A stretch of DNA of 39,808 bases from Polyangium jinanense (GTDB lineage Bacteria > Myxococcota > Polyangia > Polyangiales > Polyangiaceae): NCBI RefSeq assembly GCF_028435365.1, contig NZ_JAGTJJ010000083.1, positions 1 through 39,808 on the forward strand. Direction: 5' to 3'. The position numbers and the translations under genes were made by a program. The notes below the pieces were generated by a model that saw only the letters and a program-made list of their open reading frames with translations, ran no database searches and was not told where the DNA came from. Shown here piece by piece: positions 1 through 39,808 of this stretch. How positions within the stretch are numbered: the stretch's first letter is position 1; the number at the start of each line of letters is the position of its first letter.

Positions 1-120
1 ACTGCGCATCGCGCAGTTCATCGACCCTGGGTCCAGCGCTTGCGCTGGTCCGGGTCCCGGGGCGGATAGCCCCGGGTGGGGCCTGGGGCAACGCCCCAGC
101 GCAGCGCCTCCAGATGAGAC
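1..120 (+). repeat. structured repeat arm A1 (cut by window edge)
   Basis: Arm of the dispersed hairpin repeat, beginning inside hairpin 1 at the window edge. Visible hairpins are CCAGCGC-TT-GCGCTGG, CCCGGGGC-GGATA-GCCCCGGG and CTGGGGC-AAC-GCCCCAG (83-99). The tail, AGATGAGAC at 112-120, matches the outer end of the copy at 28581-28930. It ends four bases before the stop codon of the gene at 124-534, with hairpin 4 nearest that stop. A second arm may lie outside the window to the left. Confidence 0.85.
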
Positions 121-7164: not shown

Positions 7165-7272
7165 CGAGAAACCGCGCATCGCGCGGTTTCTCGGCCCTCG
7201 GTCCAGGCCGTGCCTGGTCCGGGGTGCAGGGGGCGGACAGCCCCCTGCTGGGGTGCGGGGCAAAGCCCCGCG
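7165..7272 (+). repeat. structured repeat arm A2
   Basis: Solo arm of the hairpin repeat. The four stems are GAGAAACCGCGC/GCGCGGTTTCTC, CCAGGC/GCCTGG, TGCAGGGGGC/GCCCCCTGC(A) with loop GGACA, and GCGGGGC-AAA-GCCCCGC (7255-7271). Hairpin 1 differs from the common GAACTGCGC form on both strands of the stem, so pairing is kept. It lies between the kinase start and the stop of the gene at 7276, with hairpin 4 adjacent to that stop. Confidence 0.88.
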
Positions 7273-7275
7273 GCA

Positions 7276-8061
7276 TCACCTTGGGACTTCGGGCACCTCG
7301 GTCTCTGGGGTGACGGCGTCGTTCGACTCTTTGGGCGTGTCCCTTCGGGCGGCGTTGGCTCGGTATTCGTCGAGTGGGCGGAGGGCGTCGCGTGCGGCGG
7401 TGCGGGATTCGAGGGGTGCTTCCTCGTCGAGACATACGGACACGAGTTGGAGGGCGTGGCGGACGATTGCGTCGCCCACCTCGCGCAGCGGGAGGACGAG
7501 GCTTGGGACGGTGATTTCGGGGCGGGCCTTGGTGATGCCGATGGCTTCGCCGTACAGCTTGTGGATTCGACGCACCTCGGCCAGGAACTCGGGGCCTGCG
7601 ACGACGTCGATATCGGCGGCGAGGTCCTCCTCGTTGATTCGATCGAGCCGCTTTTGCGTCTCGGCCCACTGGCTCGCGTAATCGGCCTTCAGGAACGAGA
7701 GACCCGTGGGGAACAAGGTGGCGAGCAGGACACCTGCGCGCGCGGCGTGGGGGTGCGTCTCTGCGGGCAGCCCCGAGTAATCCTCGATTCGGCCGAAGAG
7801 ACGGCTCATGGCGTGGTCGGCGAGCACGTCGACGGGCCGCGCGTCGGGCCGCTTCTCCACGCGATCACGCGCCTTCCAGCTCTCCTGGAGCGAGAGTGCC
7901 GCCTGCCGGAGCGTGTTCGCGGCCTTCTTGACGGACAGCGGCGCGCCGTCGGGCGTGGCTGCGACGAGTTTGATCGAGAGTGCGACGGCGGACGGCACGT
8001 CGAGCTTGGGGGGACGAACGTAGACAGACGGGTCGAAATCAGCGTCCAAGGAAACCTCCAT
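7276..8061 (-). CDS. conserved-looking hypothetical cytosolic protein
   Basis: 261 residues from the ATG at 8061. It is mostly helical and charged, with no signal, membrane span or recognisable motif. Sections such as ALSIKLVAATPDGAPLSVKKAANTL and FLKADYASQWAETQKRLDRI look like helical bundle segments, and the C-terminal 40 residues are low complexity and acidic. The start is uncertain: a TTG at 8049 has a perfect GGAGG five bases upstream that lies inside the first codons of the ATG version, so the protein may begin at residue 5. I do not recognise the family. It is transcribed away from the CVNH-like gene, and the 43-bp array lies between them. Confidence 0.75.
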   Translation of the reverse strand: MEVSLDADFDPSVYVRPPKLDVPSAVALSIKLVAATPDGAPLSVKKAANTLRQAALSLQESWKARDRVEKRPDARPVDVLADHAMSRLFGRIEDYSGLPAETHPHAARAGVLLATLFPTGLSFLKADYASQWAETQKRLDRINEEDLAADIDVVAGPEFLAEVRRIHKLYGEAIGITKARPEITVPSLVLPLREVGDAIVRHALQLVSVCLDEEAPLESRTAARDALRPLDEYRANAARRDTPKESNDAVTPETEVPEVPR

Positions 8062-8153
8062 TGAAACGGGGTGCGAGGCAGACGGTCGACCCGGGAGAAG
8101 CGTGCAGGCGGAATCTTGCTGCGAGGGCGGAGACGGAAGCGACATTGCGCCGT

Positions 8154-8340
8154 GCAGGTGGGTGGACCTCGCGGATCGATGTGGCGCATCGGTCCTGGAG
8201 GTGCCGGGACATCCCGGGACGATGCGGGGAGCGGTTGGAGCAGGTTCCGGGACATGGGCCGGCGATGATCGGATCCGGGGACGCAGGTTCCGGGAGCTCG
8301 ACGCGTGAGGGCATGATCCCTCGGCGAAGGATCTGGAACG
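8154..8340 (+). repeat. 43-bp-period tandem array upstream of the CVNH-like gene
   Basis: Five degenerate units begin at 8154, 8197, 8240, 8283 and 8326, exactly 43 bp apart. Each starts with a form of GCAGGTTCCGGGA: identical in units 3 and 4, 9-11 of 13 matching in the others. The first three also have CGATG at unit positions 24-28. Units 3 and 4 match at 27 of 43 positions by eye. The period is not a multiple of three, so it is not coding. The array fills the divergent intergenic region (8062-8458) and ends about 25 bp before the -35 box at 8365, so it could bind a regulator with a fixed helical phase. Confidence 0.75.
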
Positions 8341-8364
8341 TCGCGGGACGGAGGATCCCTTGGC

Positions 8365-8393
8365 TTGACTCCGCTCCTCCGTGTCTCGATACA
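8365..8393 (+). promoter_or_regulatory. sigma70-type promoter of the CVNH-like gene
   Basis: TTGACT (8365-8370), a 17-bp spacer, and GATACA (8388-8393). This predicts transcription starting near 8400 and a leader of about 58 nt before the ATG at 8459. Confidence 0.65.
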
Positions 8394-8458
8394 CAGACCA
8401 GGACGCCCGGGGCGTTGAATCCAAGCCGTCCGGGCCTCGAACGCGGAGGGGGAAGAAC

Positions 8459-8794
8459 ATGAAATTCCATCTGATTGTCGTTGCTCTCGCGGCGCTCGTC
8501 GGAATCGGCTCGGTTGCCGAGGCTACGGTGGCCGCGCCTGCCGAGGGCCACCTCGACGAGGACTCGAACCCGAGCGACGTGGGCGCCGATGACTTCGAGC
8601 TCAGGGCGGTCACCCCGCCGGGCGGCTCGTGGAATCGGACCTGTAAGCAGCCGGGTAGTTCGATTCCCGGCGGATTCTGCGCCGAGTGCAGACGGGTTAA
8701 CGGCTCCTACGTGCAGTCCTGTATCTACACGCGCCGCTGCCCGAGCTGGTGCGCCGACAACATCGACGGCACGCTGAGGTGCAGCGGCTGCTGA
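8459..8794 (+). CDS. secreted CVNH (cyanovirin-N-like) small protein
   Basis: 111 residues from the ATG at 8459, with GGAGGGGGAA upstream. Residues 1-23 are a signal peptide (FHLIVVALAALVGIGSVAEA). After an acidic linker, residues about 58-111 follow the cyanovirin-N homology pattern: GSWNRTC, then GGFCAECRRVNGSYVQSCIY, then NIDGTLRC. The last element matches the NIDGTL end of the second CV-N repeat. Only one CVNH half-unit is present, and there are eight cysteines in it, far more than in classical CVNH, so it is probably disulfide-stabilised and exported. CVNH proteins bind mannose-type glycans; that role here is inferred. An alternative is an unrelated Cys-rich secreted peptide. Confidence 0.75.
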   Translation: MKFHLIVVALAALVGIGSVAEATVAAPAEGHLDEDSNPSDVGADDFELRAVTPPGGSWNRTCKQPGSSIPGGFCAECRRVNGSYVQSCIYTRRCPSWCADNIDGTLRCSGC

Positions 8795-8915: not shown

Positions 8916-9701
8916 CTAGCCGTGCACCTTCCGCCCGAACTCCCGCATCCACTTCGCCTCGTCCTCGGTGAGCGGCCCTTTTTCGAGCGCCTTCAGGTTG
9001 TCCTCGAGCTCGGCCCGAGTCTTGGGCCCCGTGAGCGCCATATCCACGTGCGGGCTCGAGAGCTGGAACCGATAACAGTCGCCCGCGCTCATGACCGGCC
9101 CGTCCCAGCCACTCGGGCGCTTCAGGAGCTTCCGCCAAGCCGTCGCCGTGTACGCGAGCACCGAGGGCGAATGCTCCTTCACATGCGGGAAGACGTCGCG
9201 CTCGGCCCCCGGATGCGCCGCGTTGTACCGGAGCATCAAGAGGTCGAGCGGCGAGCCCGCGGCAAGCGTGCCCGCGCGCGGGCGGTCGTGGATGCTCACG
9301 CCAATCGAACGGACCTTGCCGCTCTCGCGCAGGTGGAGGAGCTCTTTCTGCGTCGCCTCCGTCCAAGCGGAGCCCGTGCCGAGCCAGCCGAGCAAGTACA
9401 CGTCGAGGTGATCCGTGCCAAGCTGGCGCAAAAGCTTCTCCGCACCCGAGCGCACGCCCCAGCCAAACCAGCCGATCTGCGCGAAGCCAATCACCGACAC
9501 CTCGTCGCGCCGCGCACCCAAAGCCGCCTTGACGGGCGCGCGCATCCCCTTGTTCCGCGACGTCCACAAGAAGACATTCACGCCACGATCGATCGCAGCG
9601 CGGACGCCGTCCTCGTCGATGCCATAATTCGCCGCAAGGCCAAGCCGAAACGCGCGCTTGCCACGCAGCGCCGAGGGAGTTGCATACAGCCAGTCGTTCA
9701 T
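8916..9701 (-). CDS. aldo/keto reductase-fold protein lacking the catalytic tetrad (1)
   Basis: 261 residues from the ATG at 9701, preceded by GGGGGG. The overall pattern is the AKR TIM barrel: LGLAANYGIDEDGVRAAIDRGVNVF, DHLDVYLLGW, VRSIGVSIHDRP, LLMLRYNAAHPGAERDVFPH and the C-terminal DMALTGPKTRAELEDNLKAL. The expected catalytic residues are missing: the GxNxFDTAxxY segment reads GVNVFLWTSRNKG (no Asp or Tyr), the Lys strand reads VSVIGFAQIG, and the LLHW His is replaced in LLGW. It is probably a binding or regulatory member, or an enzyme with different chemistry. It is paralogous to the protein at 10051-10932, sharing LLMLRYNAAHPGA and DVFPH. Confidence 0.85.
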   Translation of the reverse strand: MNDWLYATPSALRGKRAFRLGLAANYGIDEDGVRAAIDRGVNVFLWTSRNKGMRAPVKAALGARRDEVSVIGFAQIGWFGWGVRSGAEKLLRQLGTDHLDVYLLGWLGTGSAWTEATQKELLHLRESGKVRSIGVSIHDRPRAGTLAAGSPLDLLMLRYNAAHPGAERDVFPHVKEHSPSVLAYTATAWRKLLKRPSGWDGPVMSAGDCYRFQLSSPHVDMALTGPKTRAELEDNLKALEKGPLTEDEAKWMREFGRKVHG

Positions 9702-9749
9702 GCCCCCCACGGTATCACGACGGGAGCAGAGGGGGCTGTCCTACAGCGT

Positions 9750-10044
9750 AGCGCCGGGGTTTCACCCCGGACCCCAGCAGGGGCTATCCGCCCCTGCACC
9801 CGGACCAGCGCAAGCGCTGGACCCGGGGCGACAGCGCGCGATGCGCGCTGTCGACAGGGAAGACGTCGCTACGAGACACGGCAGTGCTGCTGTCTCAGCT
9901 GGCAACGCCGCTCGTGGTCTTGCCAGGGCCTCTTCGATGAACTGCGCATCGCGCAGTTCATCGACCCCGAGTCCAGCGCTTGCGCTGGTCCGGGGTGCAG
10001 GGGGCGGACAGCCCCCTGCTGGGGTGCGGGGCAACGCCCCGCGC
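9750..10044. repeat. complete structured repeat (arms A4 and A3 head to head)
   Basis: Two inverted arms, 9750-9857 (read on the minus strand) and 9936-10044 (read on the plus strand), around a centre of about 80 bp. Arm A4 stems: GACAGCGCGC/GCGCGCTGTC, CCAGCGC/GCGCTGG, GCAGGGGC/GCCCCTGC, CCGGGGT-GAA-ACCCCGG (9753-9769). Arm A3 stems: GATGAACTGCGC/GCGCAGTTCATC, CCAGCGC/GCGCTGG, GCAGGGGGC/GCCCCCTGC, GCGGGGC-AAC-GCCCCGC (10026-10042). The centre resembles, in reverse complement, the centre of the copy at 19574 (GCCAG..A.ACAGCAG). It fills the space between the two AKR-like genes and ends about six bases from the stop at 10051. Confidence 0.9.
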
Positions 10045-10050
10045 ACGCGC

Positions 10051-10932
10051 TCAGCCTTCGCCGAGCTCCGTCGTCGTGCGAAAGCCGAAACCCGAGTAGA
10101 GGTTGACCAGCCGATCTGCGAAACCCATTCCGCGTGCCGTGAGCTTTGACGTCTCTCGCACGCGCTCGCCGATTCGCCGCATCCATGCGAGCTCCTCTTC
10201 GTTCATCGGACCCTCTTCGAGTGCCTTCAGGGCTTCGTCGATCTGCGCTGCGTCTCGCGCGCCGGCCCAGCATGCGCCGATGTTCGGGTTCGAGAGGGCG
10301 AACCGGTAACAATCCGCGGCGCGCGGCAGACGTTCCTCCGCGGGGACGAGCTTGCGATCGAGGAGCTGGCCCCAGGAGGTCGAGGTGTATGAGACGATTC
10401 CGGGGCCAGGGTCCGGCAGGTGCGGAAAGACGTCCTTGTCGGCGCCGGGGTGCGCTGCGTTGTAACGGAGCATCAGAAGGTCGATGCGGGGATCCCGGGC
10501 GAGACGCTTGAATGCGGGGCGGTTGTGGCAGGAGATCATGACCGAACGCGCGCGACCCCGGCGCACGAGATCTGCGGCGGCGTCGAGGATTGCGTCCTTC
10601 GGCGGGAGGTTCCACCAGCCGAGGAGCAGGACGTCCGCGTGATCCATTTCGAGCTTGCGGAGCCCCTTTTCGAGGGATTTGCCGATGCCGGCCGGCGAGC
10701 GCGAGTAAGTCTGGATGACGACCTTGATCCGCTCGCGGCTACGCTTGCCGAGACGCTTCAAGCCCTCGCCGAAATCGGGCATGCGCGACGAGCCCCAGTA
10801 GAAAAAATTTATCCCGCGTTCGAAGGCATGCTCCACGTCGCGCCCCTTGGCGCCATAACTCGCCGCGAGCCCGAGGGGCACGACGTCGAGAGGGCTGCGG
10901 CCGAGGCGGACAGGGGAAAAGGAAGCCGACAT
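10051..10932 (-). CDS. aldo/keto reductase-fold protein lacking the catalytic tetrad (2)
   Basis: 293 residues. AKR features include VVPLGLAASYGAKGRDVEHAFERGINFF, a helix/strand pattern through DHADVLLLGWWN, SVMISCHNRPAFKRL, LLMLRYNAAHPGADKDVFPH and a C-terminal ALSNPNIGACWAGARDAAQIDEALKAL region. As in its paralogue, the tetrad is gone: GINFFYWGSSRMP replaces GxNFFDTAxxY, VVIQTYS lacks the catalytic Lys, and LLGWW lacks the His. It is about 30 residues longer than the paralogue at the C-terminus. It lies on the same strand, 66 bp after the membrane protein gene. The loss of the same residues in both copies suggests a conserved non-redox role. Confidence 0.85.
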   Translation of the reverse strand: MSASFSPVRLGRSPLDVVPLGLAASYGAKGRDVEHAFERGINFFYWGSSRMPDFGEGLKRLGKRSRERIKVVIQTYSRSPAGIGKSLEKGLRKLEMDHADVLLLGWWNLPPKDAILDAAADLVRRGRARSVMISCHNRPAFKRLARDPRIDLLMLRYNAAHPGADKDVFPHLPDPGPGIVSYTSTSWGQLLDRKLVPAEERLPRAADCYRFALSNPNIGACWAGARDAAQIDEALKALEEGPMNEEELAWMRRIGERVRETSKLTARGMGFADRLVNLYSGFGFRTTTELGEG

Positions 10933-10998
10933 GCAAGATCCTCCGGCGCCGAGGGTGGCACGGAGGATCGGGGAAAGGCAAGCGAGGTGCGCGGGGGA

Positions 10999-12036
10999 TT
11001 ATCGGGTTTCGGCGGCGATCGGGGCGGGCGCCTCTGCGTCGGCCGCGCTTGCGGTGCGCGCGCCGGTGAGGCTGACGCAAGCGCCGCCCACGCCGAGGGC
11101 GACGATGCCACAAGCAAACGCGCCGAGGAGGGCGCGGCGCGCGTCCCGCGGATTGCCGTGGACGACGGAGAGGACGCGGTCGTGCTCGCGGTAGACGACG
11201 GCGGCGGAGAGCACGGACGCGCGCGTCTCCTCACCGAGGCCGAGATCGAGCTTGCGCGGCGACCAGGCGACGCGCGGGTCGTCGCCGGATGCCGAGCGCA
11301 TGGCGGGCAGCAGGCGCTCGACGCGGAGCGCACGCACGAGGGCCACGGCGTCGCTGAGGCAAAGCGCGAAGATGGCGGCGACGGCGGCGAGGCCGAGGGT
11401 GCGCGAGACCTCGAGCGAGGGGCGGACGCCGGTGGGGAAGACGTTCCAATCGGGCAGGGCGGCGAGGGTGCCGAGGGCGACGCTGACGGCGACGGCGAGC
11501 CAGACGGCGCGGCGATCGGCGCGATCGACGAGGGAGCCGGGGCGGGCGCGACCGACGCGGCGGGCGGCGGCGAGGACGAGGGCGAAGGCGGGCAAGAATC
11601 CGAGCGCGCAGACGAATCCGGTGGCGGCGCCTTCGCCGAGGCCCCAGCGCGACCAGCGCATCACGCCGATGAGCGCGCCGCCCATGAGCCCGGCCGAGAG
11701 GACGCCCACGGCGGCCGCGAAGAACGCGGCGGCGCGGCCGGGCCAGCGGACGGTGGGCTGCACGAGGATGCCGAGGAGGAGGGCGCAGAGCGGGGTGACG
11801 ACGACGAACGCGGGGCGGAGGCCGGCGTCCATGAGCTTGAGGGCGCCGACGCGGAAGAAGTCGGCGGCCATCCATCCGCCAACGGCGCCGAGGACGGCGT
11901 ACGGGAGCGAGAGACGAGGAACGCGGCCAGGAGCGGAGGCGAGGACGGAAGCGGAGGCGGGAGCGGGAGCGGGAGCGGCGACGGAAGCGGGAGCGGGAAC
12001 GGCAGAAGCGGGGGCGGTGGCGTTCGGCTGGAGCAT
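10999..12036 (-). CDS. polytopic membrane protein of unknown function
   Basis: 345 residues. The first 35 are a low-complexity Ala/Pro/Ser stretch, followed by about seven hydrophobic segments, among them YAVLGAVGGWMAADFF, LRPAFVVVTPLCALLLGILV, AAAFFAAAVGVLSAGLMGGA, VWLAVAVSVALGTLAAL and LLGAFACGIVALGVGGACVSL. A cytosolic loop before the last span (residues about 240-310: SPRKLDLGLGEETRASVLSAAVVYREHDRVLSVVHGNPRDARR) is the only hydrophilic domain. An AGG-type site precedes the ATG at 12036. I do not recognise a transporter family. It lies in a same-strand run from the beta-barrel gene (12772) to the AKR-like genes, with gaps of 66-103 bp. Confidence 0.8.
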   Translation of the reverse strand: MLQPNATAPASAVPAPASVAAPAPAPASASVLASAPGRVPRLSLPYAVLGAVGGWMAADFFRVGALKLMDAGLRPAFVVVTPLCALLLGILVQPTVRWPGRAAAFFAAAVGVLSAGLMGGALIGVMRWSRWGLGEGAATGFVCALGFLPAFALVLAAARRVGRARPGSLVDRADRRAVWLAVAVSVALGTLAALPDWNVFPTGVRPSLEVSRTLGLAAVAAIFALCLSDAVALVRALRVERLLPAMRSASGDDPRVAWSPRKLDLGLGEETRASVLSAAVVYREHDRVLSVVHGNPRDARRALLGAFACGIVALGVGGACVSLTGARTASAADAEAPAPIAAETR

Positions 12037-12139
12037 GGGGCGGTACCTCGCGGGGGGGCTCAGACGCTCGGAAGGTGGGAAGAGTTCCCGGGATCTTGGG
12101 TCTGCCCGCGTCTGAAAGGCCCGCTCGGCCTTCCCCGGC

Positions 12140-12772
12140 TCAAAACACGTAATTCATCCCGACGTTGAAGCCGCCGTCGACGTTCAGGAGCGAGCTCTCG
12201 GTGGGGCCTTGGCCCACCTTCCCGACGTAGAGGACCGCCTCGGGCCTCGCGAACAGGCTGAACTTCGGGCTCGCATAAAACGCGAGCCCGAAGCCGGCCC
12301 GCGCGACGCCGCCCACCATCGTCGGCGCCGGCGTGCCGCTCGGCGCGCCCTTGACGGACACCTTGCCGTAGAAGCCACCACCGGCGAGGCCGGGATTGAG
12401 GAACAACCCTCGTCCGATGTTGATGAGGTAATTCCCGCCGAGGGTGACCATGCCGCCCTGGCGCGCGGCGGCGTCGACACCCTTGTAGAAGTAGCTGGCG
12501 TTCAGCGCCAGGTTGAGGTTGTTGAGGATGAAATAGCGGAACGAGAGCCCGGTGATGTTCGTGGTCCGGATGGAGGAGGTGTTGTTCTCGTTGCTGTAAT
12601 TGAGCACGAGCAGGCTCTCGGCTCCGATCTCCTTGATGCCCTTCCCGATCGCCCGGATGCCGTTCGTGTCGGGAGCGTTGGGAACGAGGACGTCGGCGAG
12701 CGCGGACAGAGGTGCAGCCACGAGGACCGCACCAAGGGAGACCATTGCAGCGACAATCGACCAAGTACGCAT
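12140..12772 (-). CDS. outer-membrane beta-barrel protein
   Basis: 210 residues. A clear signal peptide (MRTWSIVAAMVSLGAVLVAA ... ALA, cleaved before DVLVPN) is followed by amphipathic strands that alternate aromatic and small residues (LSFRYFILNNLNLALNASYFY, GGMVTLGGNYLINIGRG, GFGLAFYASPKFSLFARPEAVLYVG) and a C-terminal strand ending FNVGMNYVF. A terminal Phe is the usual signal for insertion into the outer membrane. The size fits an eight-stranded barrel of the OmpA/OMP_b-brl type. The ATG at 12772 has GAGG seven bases upstream. Substrate or partner is unknown. Confidence 0.85.
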   Translation of the reverse strand: MRTWSIVAAMVSLGAVLVAAPLSALADVLVPNAPDTNGIRAIGKGIKEIGAESLLVLNYSNENNTSSIRTTNITGLSFRYFILNNLNLALNASYFYKGVDAAARQGGMVTLGGNYLINIGRGLFLNPGLAGGGFYGKVSVKGAPSGTPAPTMVGGVARAGFGLAFYASPKFSLFARPEAVLYVGKVGQGPTESSLLNVDGGFNVGMNYVF

Positions 12773-12821
12773 GATACCTCGACGGGATGACAGGGCAGAG
12801 GCGCGGGACGAGATTGGGCCG

Positions 12822-12912
12822 CGATCGCCCTGGATTCCCGGGCGGTTTACACCATTTCGAGCCGCCCGGAACGGTCGCGACCGGGCGATCGGGTCGTATT
12901 AAAAAGAATTAA
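12822..12912. promoter_or_regulatory. nested inverted repeats and AT-rich motif in divergent promoter region
   Basis: The 322-bp divergent gap (12773-13094) contains an outer inverted repeat CGATCGCCC (12822-12830) / GGGCGATCG (12883-12891), an inner one CCGGGCGG (12838-12845) / CCGCCCGG (12862-12869), and the AT-rich TTAAAAAGAATTAA (12899-12912). This is a plausible control region for the barrel gene. No further gene is visible in the gap. Confidence 0.4.
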
Positions 12913-13094
12913 GCGGGCGCCGCGGCCCAGCGTCCACGGCAGCCGCGAGAGCGACGTGGCACCCGATCGCGCGCGCGGAAGCCACATGGAAGACGATTTG
13001 CATCACTTGTCCTCACGACCTCGATGGGCAAGCCAGACGCACGGCAGTCTATCCATCGATATTCACGGCGGACTGATCCGTCCAGGAATCTCGC

Positions 13095-14318
13095 ATGTCA
13101 CCTGCAAGCGTCCGAGATGAGGGCTGGTTCGTGAACGGATCGTCGCCGGCAGGACGGGAAGGCGCATTTCCTGGGTCGCGTTGCCTGACCCCGGGGGCGG
13201 GGTTCTGGGCGCCAGCCACCGTACGGAGGGTGAACGAGGACGGCTCGTTCAACGTCGAGATCGAGCTGGAGCCGGAGGAGCAGGGCGAGGTGGAGACACT
13301 CTTGTATGGAGTGCCGCCGGAGGAGGTCTCGTTCGACGACGTCGCGACGTGGGGCTCCGTGTTCGGCAGGGTGACCGGAGGCGAGGCGGGGTTCACGTAC
13401 GCGCACTTCAGCAATATGCTGGCCGGGCTGGGCGGTCGCCTCACCGCGGAGGAGACGCGGGCGCTCTGGCTCCGAAGCTGCGCGCATCTGTTCGGAATGC
13501 ACGAGGCGGAGGCGGCGGACAGCGCTCTGGACGTCGAGCAAGCGTATCGGGTCGTTCGGCGCGTCGGGCTCTGCGCGGGCGCGCTGCAAAAGGATCTGGA
13601 CCGCGGAGAGGAAGCCGTCCCCTACCACGTGCTCTACATGAATGGGATCCGCATGGGAGGCCGAGATCCCTCGGGCGTGAGCCGGACGGTCACCCTGGAA
13701 GACGCGTTCGCCGCGCTCGGACTATCGGCGGTCGGGTCGGACGCGGAGAGCCTGGATGATCTCGCGAACGTGGAGCAGAGATGCGGAATTCGCCTGCCGG
13801 ACGCCTTGAAGAGCTTTTTCGGCCAATGCGGTGTCTGCAGGGCCGTGCGGGAGACGCATCCCAACGATCCGAAGCTGTCGCGGGTGGACTGGCTGCTCTG
13901 GCCGGAGAACGACAGAGCGAGACCGAGGAGGATTCCGGAGCTGGGCCTGAACGGCGATTGCGCGATGTTGCTCGTGGACGAGCACGACGGCGATTACGCC
14001 TGGCACGCCGTCTTCTGCGAGGGGGACCTGGACGCACGTGTGTATCTCAGAGACGAGCAGGAGGAGCGGTGGCACCTCGTCGCGCCGACGATGGCTTTCT
14101 TCTTCTGGGACCTCGCACAGTCCGGGCTCATCCGCTACCAAGAGCCGCGCTTCGCAGGAATGAGGCCCGTGAGGAAAAACGACATTGGATTGATCTACGA
14201 CAGGCCGATTCGCAGGCGCGACGCGTCGAAGGTGGAGAAAGAACGCGCCGCCCGGAGCCTGGTCGAGCCAGTCACGGACCCTGAAAAACCGCGGCGTCCA
14301 TGGTGGAAGATCTGGTAA
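13095..14318 (+). CDS. SUKH (SMI1/KNR4)-like domain protein with N-terminal modules
   Basis: 407 residues; AGGA lies seven bases before the ATG. Residues about 30-60 (GAGFWAPATVRRVNEDGSFNVEIEL) look like a small Tudor/SH3-like barrel. Residues about 95-160 (FTYAHFSNMLAGLGGRLTAEETRALW) look EF-hand- or helix-rich. From about 215, LDDLANVEQRCGIRLPDALKSFFGQCGV matches the start of SUKH domains, followed by WLLWPEN, AMLLVDEHDGDYAWHAVF and WHLVAPTMAFFFWDLA. SUKH proteins are often immunity proteins for polymorphic toxins, but no toxin gene adjoins it, so that role is not supported here. The C-terminus is basic (RRPWWKIW). It is transcribed alone and ends at a strong terminator. Confidence 0.75.
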   Translation: MSPASVRDEGWFVNGSSPAGREGAFPGSRCLTPGAGFWAPATVRRVNEDGSFNVEIELEPEEQGEVETLLYGVPPEEVSFDDVATWGSVFGRVTGGEAGFTYAHFSNMLAGLGGRLTAEETRALWLRSCAHLFGMHEAEAADSALDVEQAYRVVRRVGLCAGALQKDLDRGEEAVPYHVLYMNGIRMGGRDPSGVSRTVTLEDAFAALGLSAVGSDAESLDDLANVEQRCGIRLPDALKSFFGQCGVCRAVRETHPNDPKLSRVDWLLWPENDRARPRRIPELGLNGDCAMLLVDEHDGDYAWHAVFCEGDLDARVYLRDEQEERWHLVAPTMAFFFWDLAQSGLIRYQEPRFAGMRPVRKNDIGLIYDRPIRRRDASKVEKERAARSLVEPVTDPEKPRRPWWKIW

Positions 14319-14356
14319 GGGCATCAAGATCAGCCGCTTTGAGCGGATCACCTATT

Positions 14357-14386
14357 GAAAGTCCCCGGCTTTGCCGGGGGCTTTTT
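14357..14386 (+). terminator. rho-independent terminator
   Basis: GAAAGTCCCCGGC, loop TTT, GCCGGGGGCTTTTT: a stem of at least ten pairs followed by five T residues, 38 bp after the stop at 14318. It also sits just past the convergent regulator gene ending at 14395, with a weaker T run on that side, so it probably serves both. Confidence 0.85.
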
Positions 14387-14394
14387 ACAAAGAG

Positions 14395-17223
14395 TCAAGC
14401 GGGCGGCAGCTCGAAGGCGAGCGATTCCAGGACGACCGCCGTGGGATCGAGCAAGAAGCCGTCATCGCGGCTCTGCAGCAGGGCTCCAAGGCCGAGCTTG
14501 CGGAGCTTGGTCAGCGTGACGTAGACGCGGTTCGCCGCCGCCTTGGGCGAGATTCGTTCCCCGGGCCAGCCAGCCTCGAAGAGCTCCGCGAGCGAGAGGG
14601 CGCGGCCCGGAGCGTCGATGCGCGCACGAACGAGGAATGCCAGGACGAGGCGCGCCGCCTTCGCCTTCAAGAAGGGCACAGGGCGGCTATCCTGGAGGCG
14701 AAACCAGCGGGCCTCCGGGCCCACGACGAGCCTCGCAATCGCTGGCGGGAGCGGATCGCCGGGCGGGCTCGCCGAGGTCGCGGGCAGGGCGATCGCGCGC
14801 TCGAGCAGGCGTACGGCGAAGCGAACGTCCTCCGAACCGCGCGCCGGCGCGAAGGTGCCGTCGGGGGCCGGAGCCTGGGCCACGGCAATCGGCGCAGCGG
14901 CGGCGAGGCGATATCGCGCTGCGGCCGTCTCATCGCCCGCTGCCAGGGCGACGCGCGCGCGCCAGGCGTCCGCATGGGCAGAGTGCAGCTCCACCGCAAT
15001 CCTCGTCGTGAGCACACGCCCGCCGCCGAGCCTTTCGGCGGCGGCCTCGAAGTGGCGCGCCGCGGCGTCCTCGTGGCCGAGCCCGGTCTCGACGGCTCCG
15101 AGCGCGGCCAGGAAGACGATCGAATAGTGCCGCTCGCCGGTGCCATGGAGCCGCGCGAGGGCTTCGCCGTACGCGGAGCGCGCGTCGTCGAGCAGGCCCT
15201 CCTCGAACGCGACGTCGCCGAGGTAGCCGTGGAGCACGCCCTCCGACCATCGATCGCCGACGGCCCGGTGGATCGCGAGCGCCGCCCCGAGTTTTTCGCG
15301 CGCCTCGCCGAAGCGGCCCCTCGCTTGCTGGATGCGCCCCAGGATGCCGAGCACGTAACCCTCGGTGCGTCGGTCTTCCTGGAGCAGGGCGAGCGTTTGG
15401 CCGGCGGCGAGCTCGGCCTCGTCGAGCCGGCCGAGGCTCAGGCGCGCCAGGGCGATCTGCGAAAGGGCCAGGGATTGTCCCCGCGGATCACCGGCGACCT
15501 GGAAGCCTGCGGCCGCCTGCTCCACGTACCCCACGGCCTCCGTGGCGCGTCCCCGCCAGTTGAGCGCGCCGCCGTAGGTGAGCATCCAGTCGGCATGAAG
15601 CGAGGCTTCGCCGAGATCGAGGGCGATCGCCCGCGCTTGATCGAAGCAGGACCGCGCGTCGTCCGGGCGCTCCGCCTGATCGAACATCAGCCCGAGCTTG
15701 GTGAGGGCGAGGGATTCGTCGGCGCGTGAGCCCGCCGCGCGCGCTTCGTCGAGCGCCCGCTGAAAGCCGAGGAAGCTGTCGAGCACCCGTCCTCGAAGGA
15801 GGTCCGCGAGCGCGCGTGTGTAGAGCGCCCGCGTGCGCAGGCCCGGCGGGGCGGACGCGGCTTCAAGCGCAGCATCGAGCATCGCGACGTACGGCTCCAG
15901 GCGGCCCTTGGCGCACAGGAGGAGCACGGGTTCGAGCAGCAGAAGCCCGCGCAGGGCGGCCTCCGCGTCCTCGGGCGTGAGCGGTCGCCGCGCGAGCGCG
16001 CGCGTGCACACGGCGATCAGGTTGCTCGCTTCCAGCGAGGCGCGGCGAACGTCGATCACCCTCGGGAAGGGGGCGTCCCGTGAGCCCTCCATGCCGAGGA
16101 AGTACGCCGCGTGGCGTCGGGCGGCGGCTTCCTTGCCGCCGAGTTCGTCGAGTCGCTCCGCGGCGTACTCGCGGAGGCTTTCCAGCAGGCCGTAGCGGCG
16201 TTCGCCCTGGAGGTCGAACGCCCGGATCAACGATTTGTCGTGCAACGACTGGAGCACGTCGAGGATCGGCGGGCTTCTGCCTTCGCATCCGGCACCGAGC
16301 TCGAGCACCGCCTCCGCGGCTTCGAGCGAGAAGCCGCCGGTGAACACCGAGCACTGCGCGAGCGCGTCCTTCTCCCACGGTGCCAGGAGTTCCCACGATG
16401 AGTCGATCGCGCCGCGCAGCGTCGCCTTGCGCGCGGGCGCGCCGCGGGCGCCCGTCACGAGGAGCTCGAAGCGGCGCGCGAGCCGGTCGAGGATCTGTCC
16501 CGGCGCGAGGACGCCCATCCGCGCCGCGCAAAGCTCGATCGCCAGCGGGATGCCGTCGACGCGCCGGACGATCGCGGCGACGTTCTCGGCTTCGGCCTCG
16601 GTGAGCTCGAAGTCGAAGCGCACGGCCCGCGCTCGCGCCACGAAGAGCTCGACGGCGTCGGCCGAGGCGATCGCCTGCAGCGATCGCTCGTCCGCGGGCG
16701 GCACGCCGAGCGGCTCGAGCCCGAGGGACACCTCGCCGTCCAGCCGGAGTCGCTCGCGTGAGGTCACGACGAAAAGCGCGCGAGGCGCGTACGAGAGCCA
16801 GGGGCCCAGCATTTGCGGGGCGACGTCGACGAGCTGCTCCAGATTGTCGAGGAGGACCACGCTCCGCGGCGGCTCGGCGAGGGCGCGCCCGAGCTGCGCC
16901 ACGACCTCGTCGGCGGTGCCCCCTGCGGAAAGGGGCACGTCGAGCGCGCGGGCGAGGACCGCGCACGCGTCGTCGAGCCCCTTGGCCTCGCTGAGATCGC
17001 AGAACAAGAGGCGCGCCCCGTCGCGCGCGGCGAGCGCCGACGCGGCCCACTCCAGCACGAGGCGCGTCTTGCCGATGCCGGCGGCGCCGGTGATCGTCAC
17101 GAGCCGAGCGCCGGCGTCGATGCGCTCCCCGAGCGCACGAAGCTCCCGCGCGCGCCCGATGAAGGCGCCGCGCGCCGACGTACCTGGCGGCTTTCCCGTC
17201 ACGGGCGGAAAGGCTACCACCAC
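14395..17223 (-). CDS. ATPase/TPR transcriptional regulator with C-terminal winged helix
   Basis: About 942 residues from a GTG at 17223; the frame stays open further upstream to 17307 but that stretch holds the AT-rich promoter-like motif. An NB-ARC/AAA-type ATPase comes first: Walker A GAAGIGKT, Walker B RSVVLLDNLEQL, FVVTSRERL, and GIPLAIELCAARM. About ten TPR-like helical pairs follow (ALYTRALADLLRGR, LALTKLGLMFDQAERPDDARSCF, LGILGRIQQARGRFGEAREKL and others). The last 100 residues (RLVLAFLVRARIDAPGRALSLAELFEAGWPGERISPKAAANRVYVTLTKLRKLGLGALL) form a winged-helix DNA-binding domain. This is the layout of STAND/AfsR-like activators that respond to a ligand. Its likely target includes the genes beside it. 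Confidence 0.85.
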   Translation of the reverse strand: MVVAFPPVTGKPPGTSARGAFIGRARELRALGERIDAGARLVTITGAAGIGKTRLVLEWAASALAARDGARLLFCDLSEAKGLDDACAVLARALDVPLSAGGTADEVVAQLGRALAEPPRSVVLLDNLEQLVDVAPQMLGPWLSYAPRALFVVTSRERLRLDGEVSLGLEPLGVPPADERSLQAIASADAVELFVARARAVRFDFELTEAEAENVAAIVRRVDGIPLAIELCAARMGVLAPGQILDRLARRFELLVTGARGAPARKATLRGAIDSSWELLAPWEKDALAQCSVFTGGFSLEAAEAVLELGAGCEGRSPPILDVLQSLHDKSLIRAFDLQGERRYGLLESLREYAAERLDELGGKEAAARRHAAYFLGMEGSRDAPFPRVIDVRRASLEASNLIAVCTRALARRPLTPEDAEAALRGLLLLEPVLLLCAKGRLEPYVAMLDAALEAASAPPGLRTRALYTRALADLLRGRVLDSFLGFQRALDEARAAGSRADESLALTKLGLMFDQAERPDDARSCFDQARAIALDLGEASLHADWMLTYGGALNWRGRATEAVGYVEQAAAGFQVAGDPRGQSLALSQIALARLSLGRLDEAELAAGQTLALLQEDRRTEGYVLGILGRIQQARGRFGEAREKLGAALAIHRAVGDRWSEGVLHGYLGDVAFEEGLLDDARSAYGEALARLHGTGERHYSIVFLAALGAVETGLGHEDAAARHFEAAAERLGGGRVLTTRIAVELHSAHADAWRARVALAAGDETAAARYRLAAAAPIAVAQAPAPDGTFAPARGSEDVRFAVRLLERAIALPATSASPPGDPLPPAIARLVVGPEARWFRLQDSRPVPFLKAKAARLVLAFLVRARIDAPGRALSLAELFEAGWPGERISPKAAANRVYVTLTKLRKLGLGALLQSRDDGFLLDPTAVVLESLAFELPPA

Positions 17224-17269
17224 GAGCCGCGCGTGGAGAAGCCCCTCGCAGGTGCCGGCGACCCGTGCG

Positions 17270-17283
17270 TTAAAAATCGTTAA
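17270..17283 (-). promoter_or_regulatory. TTAA-N6-TTAA motif upstream of the regulator gene
   Basis: Read on the minus strand this is TTAACGATTTTTAA, 47-60 bp before the chosen GTG. It matches TTAACGATATTTAA at 18772-18785 at 13 of 14 positions, and is strongly AT-rich in a GC-rich genome. Confidence 0.5.
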
Positions 17284-17332
17284 GGGGGTCGCGGGGCCGA
17301 GGGCCAAGCGCCGGGGCGGCGCCGGCGCGCGG

Positions 17333-18688
17333 TCAAAAGGTCGAAATCCCGAGCGAGAGTTGATGGATGAACTTCACGTCCGGCGACGGCAGCACGCGCA
17401 GCTCGTATCCGAACGTCATGGCATGCACGTGCACGCCGAGGCCCACGAACACGGCGCCGGTCTGTGTCCTGGATTCCTGCTCGTTCTCGACCATTCGAAA
17501 GGAACACGCTGTCGTCTGGTTCATGCAAGTCGGATCATCGAGCTGGAGGTTGTAGGTTTTTTCCTTGGTAAAATCCCAGTTCCAGCCGGCGCCGATCGAA
17601 GGGACGAGCGAGACCGTCGCGGGCGACGAGACCAGCGGAATGCGGTACCCGATGCGCACGTCACCCACGAGTCGCAGCGTGTCGGTCCGCCCGAGGGGCA
17701 GGTGGATGTCGCCCTTTGCCGGGACCTGCACGAAGGCGCTGAAGCGGGGCAAGAACTCCCACTGCTCGGCGAAGAGCATCGGAATGCCAATCGTTCCGCC
17801 GATGAATCCCCTGCCACGCTCGAATTGACCCGCGAACGTGGTCGCGAACCCGAGGACGATGCCAGGTTTGCTCTGGTACGGCTTTTTTCCCACGCTTTCG
17901 CGTGCCTCGCGTATTCTTCCGACCGGGACTGCGTGACCCATCGGAGCCTGTCCCACGGCCACCCCCGAGGGAGAGGGGACGACGATGCCGACCACGTGAC
18001 CCTGACAGTCGAGGAGCGGGCCGCCGGTGTGGTTCGTCCCGAGGAGCGCGTCGGTCGACAGCAGATCGTCGTCGCGGTCGCTGACGACGCCCCGGCGGTG
18101 GGTCGGAAAGCGCTCTTCACGCGTGCCGAAGTCGACGGGAACGGCGATCGCGACGACCTCGCTGCCGATCACGGGGGCCGACGTCGCGAGTTCGAGCGCC
18201 TTTCCAGGGATGGGCGCGTCGAGCTCCAGGATGGCGATGCGTTCGAATGCGTCGATGAAGACGACCTTCGCATCAATCGAGAGGTTGTCGCGGGCATGGA
18301 CGCGCAGCTTGAAGGGCCGCCCGACGACGCTGACATGGGTCACGACGTGCGTGTCGTCCACCAAAAAGCCTGCGCCCCAATTGGTATGCGTGGTGATGCG
18401 GACCGTACCGCGCCGCGCAGCCTCCGCGACGCGCTCGAGCCCCGCCGTGCCGCACGTGCCGCTCTCCAAAGGATGAGCAGGCGTCGCGGGCGGCGAAGAC
18501 GCGACGGATAGCGTCGGCGCGGGGGGCGGGGAGGGAGGCTCGGTCGCGGCACCCGCGCCCAGGGGCTCCGCGCGGGCGACCGCGGAAGACGCGAACAAGG
18601 CCGCGAACAAGGCCGCGGCAGCCAAGGACCTCACGCGGCGCGGCGCGGGGGAGGTATCGTGGGGGCCTTCTCGGGTGGGGTTCCACAT
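17333..18688 (-). CDS. secreted trypsin-like pseudoprotease fused to a beta-barrel
   Basis: 451 residues from the ATG at 18688, chosen for the GGAG eight bases upstream; an in-frame TTG at 18706 lacks a site. A signal peptide (SLAAAALFAALFASSAVARA) and Pro-rich linker precede an HtrA/trypsin-like domain (about 85-250): GAGFLVDDTHVVTHVSVV, FERIAILELD, TNHTGGPLLDCQGHVVGI. Aligned with active relatives, the triad is lost: His of VTxxHVV is Ser, Asp of DIAL is Arg, and Ser of GNSGGP is Thr. From about 265 to the end the sequence turns into amphipathic strands (GFIGGTIGIPMLF, LRLVGDVRIGYRIPLV, TFGYELRVLPS) ending in ISTF, an outer-membrane barrel signature. It is probably a surface binding protein, not a protease. 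Confidence 0.82.
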   Translation of the reverse strand: MWNPTREGPHDTSPAPRRVRSLAAAALFAALFASSAVARAEPLGAGAATEPPSPPPAPTLSVASSPPATPAHPLESGTCGTAGLERVAEAARRGTVRITTHTNWGAGFLVDDTHVVTHVSVVGRPFKLRVHARDNLSIDAKVVFIDAFERIAILELDAPIPGKALELATSAPVIGSEVVAIAVPVDFGTREERFPTHRRGVVSDRDDDLLSTDALLGTNHTGGPLLDCQGHVVGIVVPSPSGVAVGQAPMGHAVPVGRIREARESVGKKPYQSKPGIVLGFATTFAGQFERGRGFIGGTIGIPMLFAEQWEFLPRFSAFVQVPAKGDIHLPLGRTDTLRLVGDVRIGYRIPLVSSPATVSLVPSIGAGWNWDFTKEKTYNLQLDDPTCMNQTTACSFRMVENEQESRTQTGAVFVGLGVHVHAMTFGYELRVLPSPDVKFIHQLSLGISTF

Positions 18689-18771
18689 GTCGATCGTCTC
18701 CGGCAAGAGCGACCCCGGGGACGGATCCAGGGCCTGCCGGAGATGCTAGGGATCGGCACGGAGATCGCACA

Positions 18772-18790
18772 TTAACGATATTTAATCGTT
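18772..18790. promoter_or_regulatory. TTAACGATATTTAA motif with AACGAT palindrome
   Basis: TTAACGATATTTAATCGTT contains the perfect inverted repeat AACGAT-ATTTA-ATCGTT (18774-18790). It lies in the divergent region between the pseudoprotease gene (start 18688) and the Cys-rich gene (start 18898), and shares 13 of 14 bases with the site at 17270-17283. Confidence 0.55.
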
Positions 18791-18897
18791 CACGTCGTCG
18801 GAGCGGGCGCGGCTTGCGGCCTGGGCGGCGGGCTCCATCCATGGGATGAGGTAGACCGGTCGCCGGCGTGGCGCCGGAGGTCGGGGAGGGGCGTGTG

Positions 18898-19536
18898 ATG
18901 GTTCGACGAACGGCATTGGTGCTCGCCATCGGGCTCGCGAACGTGCCGGCCGCGCTTGCGGACGACGAGACGAGGCAGCAGGCGAGCGCGGTGGCGACCA
19001 ATCCGCGGCGCGTTTGCTGGAAACCTGGACAAGGACGCGGCGCAGGAGACGCGCCGACGACGTGCGAGCCGCGAAAAGAATTTCAAGGTGGTCTCTGTTA
19101 TTCGGTCTGTCCGTCGGGCATGACGGGCGAGGGGCCAGTATGCTGGTCGATTTGCCCGGCGGGATACGCGGACGAGGGGCTCCTCTGTCGCAAGGGGCTA
19201 CACGTCGTGGCCAAGCAATCGATGGGTCGCGGGACCGGGGAGGCGCCCCGATGCGCCGCAGGGCAAGAGCCCGACGGGAGCCTCTGTTATGCCCCATGCC
19301 CCGCGGGCCACACGGGCGCGGGGCCGGTCTGCTGGCCGGCGTGCGGGAGCGATTACCCAGCGAGCTGCGGCGCCTTGTGCGCGGTATCGTCCACGGCATG
19401 CGCGGAGGTGGTCGGGGAGATGGTGTCGCAAGGGCTGCTCGTGGGGCTGGAGGCCATCCTGACGCAGCGGATCGACCCGCAAGCGCTGGCGGATCTGGCG
19501 AAGGCATTCGCGTGGCCGATGTGCGAGGGCAGGTGA
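18898..19536 (+). CDS. secreted Cys-rich protein with tandem GEAPxC repeats
   Basis: 212 residues from the ATG at 18898, with GGGGAGGGG upstream. A signal peptide (VRRTALVLAIGLANVPAALA) is followed by two related blocks: GAGDAPTTC...GGLCYSVCPSGMTGEGPVCWSICPAGY and GTGEAPRC...GSLCYAPCPAGHTGAGPVCWPACGSDY. Each block has about six cysteines. The last 60 residues are helical with few cysteines (VVGEMVSQGLLVGLEAILTQRI). Blocks of the type GxxxxxxLCYxxCPxGxxGxGPVCW recur in secreted proteins of myxobacteria and some eukaryotic microbes. The function is unknown. It is divergent from the pseudoprotease gene and shares its control region. Confidence 0.82.
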   Translation: MVRRTALVLAIGLANVPAALADDETRQQASAVATNPRRVCWKPGQGRGAGDAPTTCEPRKEFQGGLCYSVCPSGMTGEGPVCWSICPAGYADEGLLCRKGLHVVAKQSMGRGTGEAPRCAAGQEPDGSLCYAPCPAGHTGAGPVCWPACGSDYPASCGALCAVSSTACAEVVGEMVSQGLLVGLEAILTQRIDPQALADLAKAFAWPMCEGR

Positions 19537-19573
19537 GGGGTTTGGTCGTGCGCGTCGGCTCCTGGGGGGCGCG

Positions 19574-19884
19574 TCGCTGGGGCGTTGCCCCAGGCCCCAC
19601 CAGGGGCTATCCGCCCCTGGACCCGGACCAGCCAGGGGCTGGACCCGGGGTCGATGAACTGCGCGATGCGCAGTTCATCGAACAGGCGACCCTGCCAGCC
19701 AAAACAGCAGCGCTGACGTCTCGACCCATGACGCCGACGGCGTGAGGCACACCTCCGCGGTCTTGCCACCGGCCTGTGGGAAGAACTGCGCATCGCGCAG
19801 TTCTTCCCCCTGAGGTCCAGGGCTTGCCCTGGTCCGGGTCGAGGGGCGGATAGCCCCCGCGGGGTCCGGGGCGGCGCCCCGGCG
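19574..19884. repeat. complete structured repeat (arms A5 and A6 head to head)
   Basis: Arm A5 (19574-19685, minus) stems: GATGAACTGCGC/GCGCAGTTCATC, CCAGCC-CCT-GGCTGG, CCAGGGGC-GGATA-GCCCCTGG, CTGGGGC-AAC-GCCCCAG (19578-19594). Arm A6 (19778-19884, plus) stems: GGAAGAACTGCGC/GCGCAGTTCTTCC, CCAGGGC-TT-GCCCTGG, GGGGC-GGATA-GCCCC, CCGGGGC-GGC-GCCCCGG (19866-19882). The roughly 90-bp centre shares CCTGCCxGCCAAxACAGCAGC with the copy at 28581, and GGTCTTGCCACCGGCCTGTG with the solo arm at 21028. It begins 38 bp after the stop at 19536. Confidence 0.92.
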
Positions 19885-19899
19885 CGGGGGTCACGGCAG

Positions 19900-20243: not shown

Positions 20244-20257
20244 AAACGCAAGCGGAT

Positions 20258-21027: not shown

Positions 21028-21158
21028 GGTCTTGCCACCGGCCTGTGGAAGAACTGCGCATCGCGCAGTTCTTCCAACACGAGTCCAGCGCTTGCGCTGG
21101 TTCGGGTCGAGGGGCGAACAGCCCCCGCGGGGTCCGGGGCGGCGCCCCGGCGCGACGG
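21028..21158 (+). repeat. structured repeat arm A7 with part of the centre
   Basis: Begins with GGTCTTGCCACCGGCCTGTGG (21028-21048), identical to part of the centre of the copy at 19574-19884. It continues with stems GGAAGAACTGCGC/GCGCAGTTCTTCC, CCAGCGC-TT-GCGCTGG, GGGGC-GAACA-GCCCC and CCGGGGC-GGC-GCCCCGG (21134-21150). The other arm is missing. Hairpin 4 is about ten bases from the stop of the lipoprotein gene at 21161. Confidence 0.9.
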
Positions 21159-21160
21159 CC

Positions 21161-28457: not shown

Positions 28458-28487
28458 GGACGTCCTCGAGCGGTCGCACGCTCAGGC

Positions 28488-28531: not shown

Positions 28532-28580
28532 CCCTCGACAAGCCCGGCGCCCCGCCTCTCGACGAGCCCGCGCTCTCGAA

Positions 28581-28930
28581 CTGAGCATTGGTCTCATCTG
28601 GGAGGCGCTGAGCTGGGGCGTTGCCCCAGGCCCCACCAGGGGCTATCCGCCCCTGGACCCGGACCAGCCAGGGGCTGGACCCGGGGTCGATGAACTGCGC
28701 GATGCGCAGTTCATCGAACAGCCGAGTCAAGACCAGGAGCGATCCTGCCCGCCAAGACAGCAGCGCTGACATCTCAACCGGCAGCGGGCCTGTTGGAAGA
28801 ACTGCGCATCGCGCAGTTCTTCCACGAATGGTCCAGGGCTTGCCCTGGTTCGGGTCGAGGGGCGAACAGCCCCCGCGGGGTCCGGGGCAGCGCCCCGGCG
28901 CGGCGGCCTCAAGAAGAGACCAATGCTCAG
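28581..28930. repeat. complete structured repeat with inverted outer ends (arms A8 and A9)
   Basis: The element is bounded by CTGAGCATTGGTCTC (28581-28595) and its exact inverse GAGACCAATGCTCAG (28916-28930). Inside are arm A8 (28613-28720, minus), with stems CTGGGGC/GCCCCAG, CCAGGGGC/GCCCCTGG, CCAGCC/GGCTGG and GATGAACTGCGC/GCGCAGTTCATC, and arm A9 (28794-28902, plus), with stems GGAAGAACTGCGC, CCAGGGC/GCCCTGG, GGGGC/GCCCC and CCGGGGC-AGC-GCCCCGG. They flank a centre with CCAAGACAGCAGCGCTGAC. At 350 bp it is the only copy whose two outer ends can both be defined. It lies between the PixA-like gene and the next gene. Confidence 0.93.
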
Positions 28931-29053
28931 GCTCTCGAAGCAGGGGCGCGGCCCCCTTCCTTGACCTTCTTCGCTTTCGCGTCGTCCAATCGGCCCGGCG
29001 GTGTAACGGGCGTGTAATTGACCGGGCCCCCGCGCTCGGGTAGGAGGGTACGC

Positions 29054-39619: not shown

Positions 39620-39681
39620 CTGAACATTGGTCTCATCGCAAGCCGCCGCGCCGGGGCGCCGCCCCGGGCCCCGCGGGGGCT
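39620..39681 (-). repeat. structured repeat arm A10, truncated
   Basis: The outer end CTGAACATTGGTCTC (39620-39634) matches that of the copy at 28581 with one change, and hairpin 4 CCGGGGC-GCC-GCCCCGG (39651-39667) follows at the same distance. The arm stops at GGGGGCT (39681), where foreign sequence begins. It lies 19 bp after the stop at 39600. Confidence 0.85.
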
Positions 39682-39808
39682 AATACCTTAGGAGATCCCC
39701 CGGCTCTGCCGGGGAGGCAGCCGAAGTTTGACATTTCCGGGGGTCTAAAGGCGGAACCCCCTTCGTGAGCCGCTCAAAGCAACACGAAAGGGGTTCCAGT
39801 GGACGAGT
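39682..39808 (+). mobile_element. left end of a probable insertion sequence, cut by window edge
   Basis: Sequence from 39682 interrupts repeat arm A10. It starts near CCTTAGGAGATCCCC (39686) and has the hairpin CCCCGGC-TCT-GCCGGGG, a TTGACA (39729-39734) and an inverted repeat GGAACCCCCTTCGTG / CACGAAAGGGGTTCC. A GTG at 39799 with AGGGG upstream could open the transposase gene, of which only three codons are present. The family cannot be named from this much. Confidence 0.55.

Follow-up and report, generated by a model that had tools for sequence, protein, structure and literature searches.

MITEs of DDE-type insertion sequences are short elements without a transposase gene that share their ends and the length of their target duplication with a full-length insertion sequence. 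Terminal repeats accompanied by 9-bp duplications are a mark of DDE transposition, and Tn5 has a 9-bp duplication and ends beginning with CTGA.

The element described here, from the soil bacterium Polyangium, resembles MITEs in being short, in lacking a transposase gene and in having the terminal repeats and the duplication length of an insertion sequence of the genus (L222). Unlike MITEs, it has an interior of two arrays of four covarying hairpins which are absent from L222, and is thus not a shrunken insertion sequence. The L222 transposase matches the Tn5 transposase over residues 10-381, and the 9-bp duplication and the ends beginning with CTGA are likewise shared with Tn5; beyond CTGA the ends are different, as is the preferred target.

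Among dispersed palindromes, inverted REP doublets have been described for REPINs (PMC3116915), and copies of the IS4-family element ISRm22, given as nine in the text and as 10/10 in a table, lie in the REPs of Sinorhizobium meliloti (PMC1525189). The Polyangium arms resemble REP/BIME elements and REPINs as extragenic inverted hairpin doublets of high copy number, but differ in having four hairpins per arm and DDE-type ends with duplications, and in the lack of a Y1 transposase match in three of six arm-rich genomes. The likeness to ISRm22 is that an IS4-family insertion sequence lands in a dispersed palindrome; in Polyangium, however, the full-length palindrome arrays are bounded by the insertion sequence's own ends. 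Each half of the system, IS4-family insertion into REPs and REPIN-type doublets, is therefore already known. The combination of a hairpin-array element with an insertion sequence landing in the hairpins of its own element was not found in the open-access literature searched, nor was any paper on Polyangium palindromic repeats or a Polyangium IS4 transposase.

Hairpin arms in the window

The window, i.e. the whole analysed stretch of 39,808 nt of Polyangium jinanense contig NZ_JAGTJJ010000083.1, had been proposed in the initial annotation to carry nine near-complete arms and a truncated one, built on a common plan of four hairpins. All nine were located, each with the hairpins in the order 1-2-3-4, and the truncated tenth arm is present as well (Table 1). 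A pattern of the 3' side of hairpin 2 and hairpin 3 gave nine matches in the window versus none in 100 shuffles. In arm orientation hairpin 1 typically reads GAACTGCGC-ATC-GCGCAGTTC, hairpin 2 CCAG....CTGG, hairpin 3 ..GGGGC-loop-GCCCC.. and hairpin 4, for example, CYGGGGC..GCCCCRG. Six arms form three inverted pairs of the arrangement 4-3-2-1-spacer-1-2-3-4 (9750-10044, 19574-19884 and 28613-28902). The minus strand of arm 9936-10044, which is the sense strand of gene 10051-10932, is predicted to fold with -78.1 kcal/mol (z -7.7).

The element at 9750-10044 is flanked by neighbouring aldo/keto reductase genes (8916-9710 and 10051-10932). The copy at 39620-39682 retains a nearly intact terminal repeat and is cut inside hairpin 3, possibly by another insertion. 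An IstB/IS21-type ATPase gene at 34345-35040 (PF01695, 3.8e-56) belongs to another insertion sequence, and a 72-bp direct repeat is present at 34114-34185 and 37187-37258.

Table 1. Arms, terminal repeats and target duplications in the window.
Position	Strand	Feature	Remarks
1..103	+	Arm truncated at the start of the window	
7165..7272	+	Single arm	Outer end adjoins stop codon of gene 7276-8613 (-)
9750..9857	-	Arm without recognisable terminal repeat	Pair partner 9936-10044; absent at the orthologous site of G001 and from the G060 stretch
9936..10044	+	Arm	Pair partner 9750-9857; outer end near stop codon of gene 10051-10932 (-)
19574..19685	-	Arm of second inverted pair	
19778..19884	+	Arm of second inverted pair	
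21045..21158	+	Single arm with partial spacer	Outer end adjoins stop codon of gene 21161-21517 (-)
28572..28580	.	Target duplication (9 bp) GCTCTCGAA, left copy	Same sequence as 28931-28939; present once, as GCTCCCGAA (one difference), at empty site G001:C7
28581..28595	+	Left terminal inverted repeat CTGAGCATTGGTCTC	0 mismatches; motif in 6/6 arm-bearing genomes searched, reversed-pattern control 0
28613..28720	-	Arm, hairpins 4-3-2-1 left to right	
28721..28793	.	Spacer separating the two arms	
28794..28902	+	Arm, hairpins 1-2-3-4	
28916..28930	-	Right terminal inverted repeat	0 mismatches
28931..28939	.	Target duplication (9 bp) GCTCTCGAA, right copy	
39620..39682	-	Terminal repeat (1 mismatch), hairpin 4 and partial hairpin 3, then unrelated sequence	

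Distribution of the arms

A scan with the hairpin pattern of one genome per species returned at least 120 stretches; among the matches listed 117 were from Polyangium, and strays came from Luteimonas (L021) and one Clostridia MAG (L019, L087). These strays match the hairpin 2-3 pattern and may reflect chance, MAG contamination or a wider relative; L087, with one partial arm, was kept in the element set for the orthologous-site comparison, and the background of gene gaps includes all three strays. Viral contigs gave no match to the arm pattern.

A covariance model of 97 arms detected at least 150 arms in each of four Polyangium genomes and, in a 60-genome family sample, matches in four (strong in G001, G018 and G060, weak in G028), the counts being taken from the best 150 scored candidates per genome and the best 59 in the family sample. 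In a 400-kb stretch of G003 25 arms scored above 80 bits and were spread unevenly; scaling up this stretch would give about 800 arms per genome. The complete G060 chromosome measures 13.24 Mb with dnaA at 11.65 Mb, and 89 of the 104 elements into which its best 150 scored arms fall lie in the dnaA-distal half (binomial p 6e-14; one genome, with the origin placed from dnaA alone). Full arms (>80 bits) were present in seven of 40 evenly spaced 20-kb samples of this chromosome, all between 4.06 and 9.36 Mb.

The 60 weak matches in G028 include two loci that were read (L267 and L268), which have other hairpins (the pair GCGAACGGGG..CCCCGTTCGC plus GGGGTCTGGGGCGAAGCCCCAGCG) and a hairpin-4-like module alone in common with the arms. 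Single arms at L055, L063, L076, L079, L100, L114 and G003C20:46914 form a subfamily in which hairpin 1 is of the type GCATCGACCG..CGGTCGATGC and the tail is often another one; the G003 copy has CTA at both ends.

A mobile element of about 350 bp

The window copy at 28581-28930 is bounded by perfect 15-bp terminal inverted repeats and a 9-bp duplication, and its empty site in G001:C7 (Polyangium sp. 15x6, genome of L001) contains one 9-mer with one difference. In a set of 196 element clusters, few of them with a syntenic partner among the stretches compared, 19 elements (18 sites) have an orthologous site without arms in another Polyangium, the gap there not exceeding 100 bp; L158, which duplicates part of G060b, was omitted. 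Two of these elements lie in the window (9736-10041 and 28586-28925), both with the arm-less site in G001:C7, and they alone among the window elements had both flanks aligned in any of the five stretches around the orthologues of one window gene, the window being aligned to 53% with G001:C7 and to 13-14% with the stretches of G002, G003, G004 and G060. The latter four stretches contain no arms, which is not evidence of absence since no window element has both flanks there.

The terminal-repeat motif CTGAGCATNGGTCTCNTC with at most one mismatch occurs 10 to 70 times per genome in six genomes (reversed control: 0). Among 21 distinct terminal-repeat pairs the 9-bp duplication is exact in eight and has one mismatch in two more; other exact duplications are of 10 bp and 5 bp (one each), with none at 4, 6-8 or 11-12 bp, and ten pairs, including the one with 5 bp, have no close 9-10-bp duplication. 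Duplications of 9 or 10 bp accompany 11 units; eight of these, namely the window copy, L224-L227 and L229-L231, are arm elements with a length of 350-392 bp, and the remaining three measure 1011 bp (with arms), 1503 bp and 2090 bp. The 11 joined empty sites lie between called genes in nine cases and inside a gene in two (L230 and L231); the link to stop codons therefore looks looser for copies with terminal repeats than for the many without.

The arms are halves of a mobile non-autonomous element, for which insertion, target duplications, ends shared with an insertion sequence and the landing site of that insertion sequence are observed. The element has the terminal inverted repeats, the duplication of fixed length with an empty site and the same-ended autonomous partner that characterise a MITE. 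Taken together, it is probable that the arms represent halves of a MITE-like non-autonomous transposon mobilised in trans by a Tn5-type insertion sequence which has nearly the same ends and lands mainly in hairpin 2.

Terminal repeats (at most three mismatches) were found at 24 of 302 arm outer ends (10/145 left and 14/157 right, with some copies counted twice), and about 92% of the arm ends are without recognisable ones. Tails scoring at least 8 against the terminal repeat number 51 of 292 versus 8.6 expected from shuffles (the 51 include intact repeats); judged from these sequences, the resemblance supports an erosion of the terminal repeats, and such erosion may have given rise to many of the copies lacking them.

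Several observations speak against this model. A number of copies without terminal repeat, including the window pair 9750-10044, are absent in relatives and hence look recent; the L111 junctions show, by eye, a 3-4-bp and not a 9-bp repeat at overlapping stop codons; and G003 has at least 150 arms and no transposase match, although repeated insertion sequences can be missing from draft assemblies. The copies without terminal repeats might have spread by a second route, either another transposase with 3-4-bp duplications or arm recombination, the Tn5-type ends being a later capture. We regard this as rather doubtful: most arm ends do lack terminal repeats, L111 and G003C20:46914 show (by eye) 3-4-bp repeats where stop codons overlap in a CTAG-like sequence, and a second tail type (CGCTACGCTGTGG..) recurs, but the excess of terminal-repeat-like tails over chance speaks against it.

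The insertion sequence and its landing site

L222 in G004 (Polyangium sp. 6x1, genome of L009) is a 1503-bp unit with an exact 9-bp duplication. Its ends deviate from those of the element by one mismatch in the left 15 positions and none at the other end, and no arms were found within it. Its 475-aa ORF encodes a Tn5-type transposase of the IS4 family according to the matches with the Tn5 transposase in PDB (E 7.7e-31), NCBIfam NF033590 (2.8e-71) and Pfam PF14706 (9e-13) and PF02281 (1.2e-6); the insertion sequence thus has the DDE transposase with Tn5-type domains expected of this family. The closest source-assigned proteins are from Polyangium (84-85% identity), and one further protein reaches 88%. 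Some transposase match was obtained in 25 of the 60 genomes of the family sample, with more than 60% identity over most of the protein in G060 only. Four full copies of the insertion sequence are present in G060, fragments (mostly at contig ends) in G002 and fragments in G001 and G018; no transposase match was detected in G003 and G028. A 2090-bp unit with similar ends and a 9-bp duplication lies in a hairpin 2 of G060 (L219 1038-3127; G060:C1:6314037-6316126); its 537-aa ORF is not a transposase and has no Pfam or NCBIfam match, and the unit is possibly a cargo transposon.

The landing site was derived from 28 insertion-sequence ends (18 from G002, eight from G060 and two from G004), 24 of them reached by transposase match and four (L249, L261, L262 and L264) assigned by their end sequence only; the set does not include further G002 ends of other variants or the one at C181:56329. 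Exactly at the centre of hairpin 2, after GGWCCA and nine bases (typically GGACCA-GGCACGGCC), lie 19 of the 28 ends, GGWCCA itself occurring at 0.045% of positions. The L222/L237 copy has its two ends off the centre but still inside hairpin 2 (the second L237 end by eye), which brings hairpin 2 to 21 of 28; three further ends are in hairpin 3 and four outside arms (L250, L263 and both of L265). The 18 G002 ends are single ends at contig ends of a draft, so two of them may be the sides of one insertion. The G060 copies L238 and L266 are flanked on both sides by hairpin 2 and an identical 9-mer, and L242 of the same genome has one end in hairpin 2, one in hairpin 3 and no duplication.

Of the 11 reconstructed targets, six have a dyad of at least seven pairs at the centre of the duplication, such dyads occurring at 6.7% of positions genome-wide and at 7.0% in intergenic DNA, and five have no 7-pair dyad; folding energy discriminates less well between targets and controls than the length of the dyad. 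L219 and L222 of the 11 are hairpin-2 cases. Some young arm elements are located in other hairpins, e.g. L224 at CCCTCGCGGG within CCCCTCTCCCTCGCGGGAGAGGGG, with a T-run shortly after.

The plan and the covariation recognised in the initial annotation stand, but it had overlooked that the arms are halves of one mobile element of about 350 bp, that full-length copies have terminal inverted repeats and 9-bp duplications, that their ends match an IS4/Tn5-type insertion sequence and that hairpin 2 is the main landing site of the latter. A match to a known IS end, named there as an outcome that would count against its interpretation, was in part found, since the element ends match this insertion sequence.

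Covariation and maintenance of pairing

From 189 arms similarity thinning left 109, of which 12 were dropped by hand without a test; as some of these were aberrant copies, the pairing of 97.7% of cells, compared with 33-46% in slid controls, is valid for the 97 kept (Polyangium and window). Both sides change in 14 of 35 pairs, and all four helices are represented. Under a tree-based null of our own implementation (FastTree and reshuffled substitutions, 20 null alignments) five of the 35 pairs had E<0.05, at least one in each helix, as had two of 8611 non-pairs. The invariance of the 3' side of hairpin 2 and the inner stem of hairpin 3 is partly by construction, since the arm-collecting pattern fixes those letters; the five significant pairs all fall outside them. 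The claim that the stems of all four hairpins covary is thereby confirmed, and the covariation upholds the view that the folding is maintained, or that a structure-dependent process copies it.

Eight candidate loci shared between species were aligned, two of which, with three arms, have the same copy in both species (G003C20:20390/G060b and G003C20:356800/L009); the remaining candidates have different or reversed arms and were not counted. Inspection by eye of the two loci revealed five compensated stem changes and, as the sole difference that breaks pairing, one indel by which an A of hairpin 3 has lost its partner in one of the species; loops and linkers have changed too, and one arm has a hairpin-2 A-A mismatch in both species (by eye). 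The compensated changes indicate that pairing is kept at single loci and not only among paralogues, unless hairpins have been exchanged between copies.

Host selection, selection on the element and palindrome-correcting mutation are all candidate causes of the folding. Template switching which corrects the palindromes would keep the pairing without any selection, and hairpin-1 loops do occur in both orientations (ATC 104/GAT 4, TTC 15/GAA 5, GGA 25/TCC 1, GTT 4/AAC 1), as a local inversion inside a palindrome would give. Nevertheless, such a process seems unlikely to account for the pairing, considering that the loop ACC (10) has no GGT partner, that the rare loops could represent independent point changes and that template switching alone leaves the shared core of hairpins 2 and 3 unexplained, the invariance of this core stemming partly from the search pattern.

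Gene context and a possible role for the host

The arms occur mostly as inverted pairs beside stop codons, often between convergent genes, as judged with a home-made gene caller. The 81 pairs away from locus edges comprise 57 in convergent, 21 in tandem and three in divergent position (six more pairs lie at locus edges), compared with 92 convergent among 418 intergenic gaps of more than 50 nt in a background that includes arm sites and non-Polyangium loci. Stop codons lie within 60 nt of both outer ends in 47 convergent pairs. The outer end of single arms faces a stop codon in 24 of 29, at a distance of at most 20 nt in 22 of these 24, and three more singles are at edges. A target specific for stop codons (CTAG duplications) found no support as a general rule: the frequencies of stop-codon pairs between convergent genes are close to those expected from overall usage (TAG/TAG 6/47; TAG 158/716 overall).

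This position, together with the compensated changes at the two shared loci and the strong fold of arm 9936-10044, would also suit arms that serve as transcription terminators or 3' stabilisers of host mRNAs under host selection, with mobility being secondary. We consider such a role improbable as the primary one. A scan for Rho-independent terminators returned no terminator-like match, i.e. no hairpin with a T-run, at the seven arms within 9500-29200; a harmless insertion would leave the same 3' position; the gene context rests on the home-made gene caller; and the arms are absent at 18 orthologous sites in sister species and are consequently not required there. Rfam gave no match in the window at the gathering score and nothing credible at E up to 1 (best hit in 9700-10100: E 0.053, 23.5 bits versus a gathering score of 52). 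The initial annotation knew of no named family with this plan, and Rfam is in agreement with this at its threshold; the ends of the element match the IS4/Tn5-type insertion sequence.

Very improbable, finally, is that the arms are REP doublets moved as single-stranded DNA by a RAYT (TnpA-REP, Y1/HuH) in the manner of REPINs or BIMEs: they are inverted palindrome doublets in extragenic space, numerous and more often doublets than singlets, like the inverted REP doublets of REPINs (PMC3116915), but three of the six arm-rich genomes, including the complete G060, have no match to the Y1 transposase domain (PF01797), and terminal repeats with 9-bp duplications are present.

Proposed mechanism and implications

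According to the preferred model of a MITE-like transposon, a full-length copy consists of a 9-bp duplication, the terminal repeat CTGAGCAT(T/G)GGTCTC, hairpins 4-3-2-1, a spacer, hairpins 1-2-3-4, the second terminal repeat and the second 9-bp duplication. It is most likely moved in trans by the Tn5-type (IS4-family) transposase of an insertion sequence of the genus which has nearly the same ends and likewise produces 9-bp duplications. This transposase seems to prefer dyad-symmetric targets, hairpin 2 above all, so that the elements would offer their own insertion sequence its landing pads; these would be placed at gene 3' ends, where an insertion presumably harms little. After insertion the terminal repeats would decay while the hairpins go on pairing. 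The reason for which the hairpins are kept is presumptive in this explanation.

A more far-reaching version, which we put forward tentatively, is that the insertion sequence and its hairpin-array satellite have co-evolved as a landing-pad system of up to eight palindromes per satellite, with hairpin 2 preferred and seeding at gene 3' ends. The satellite would multiply safe sites, the insertion sequence would land there and leave genes intact, and selection for paired and covarying stems would follow from target recognition itself.

If this holds true, MITEs and REP-like palindromes would be joined in one system, with a DDE transposase whose satellites carry its target hairpins. It would also provide a testable reason for the existence of covarying structured repeats that encode no RNA, and a warning that strong covariation in intergenic repeats need not imply a functional RNA. 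Polyangium would furthermore possess a natural site-preferring relative of Tn5, the landing site of which is a defined palindrome.
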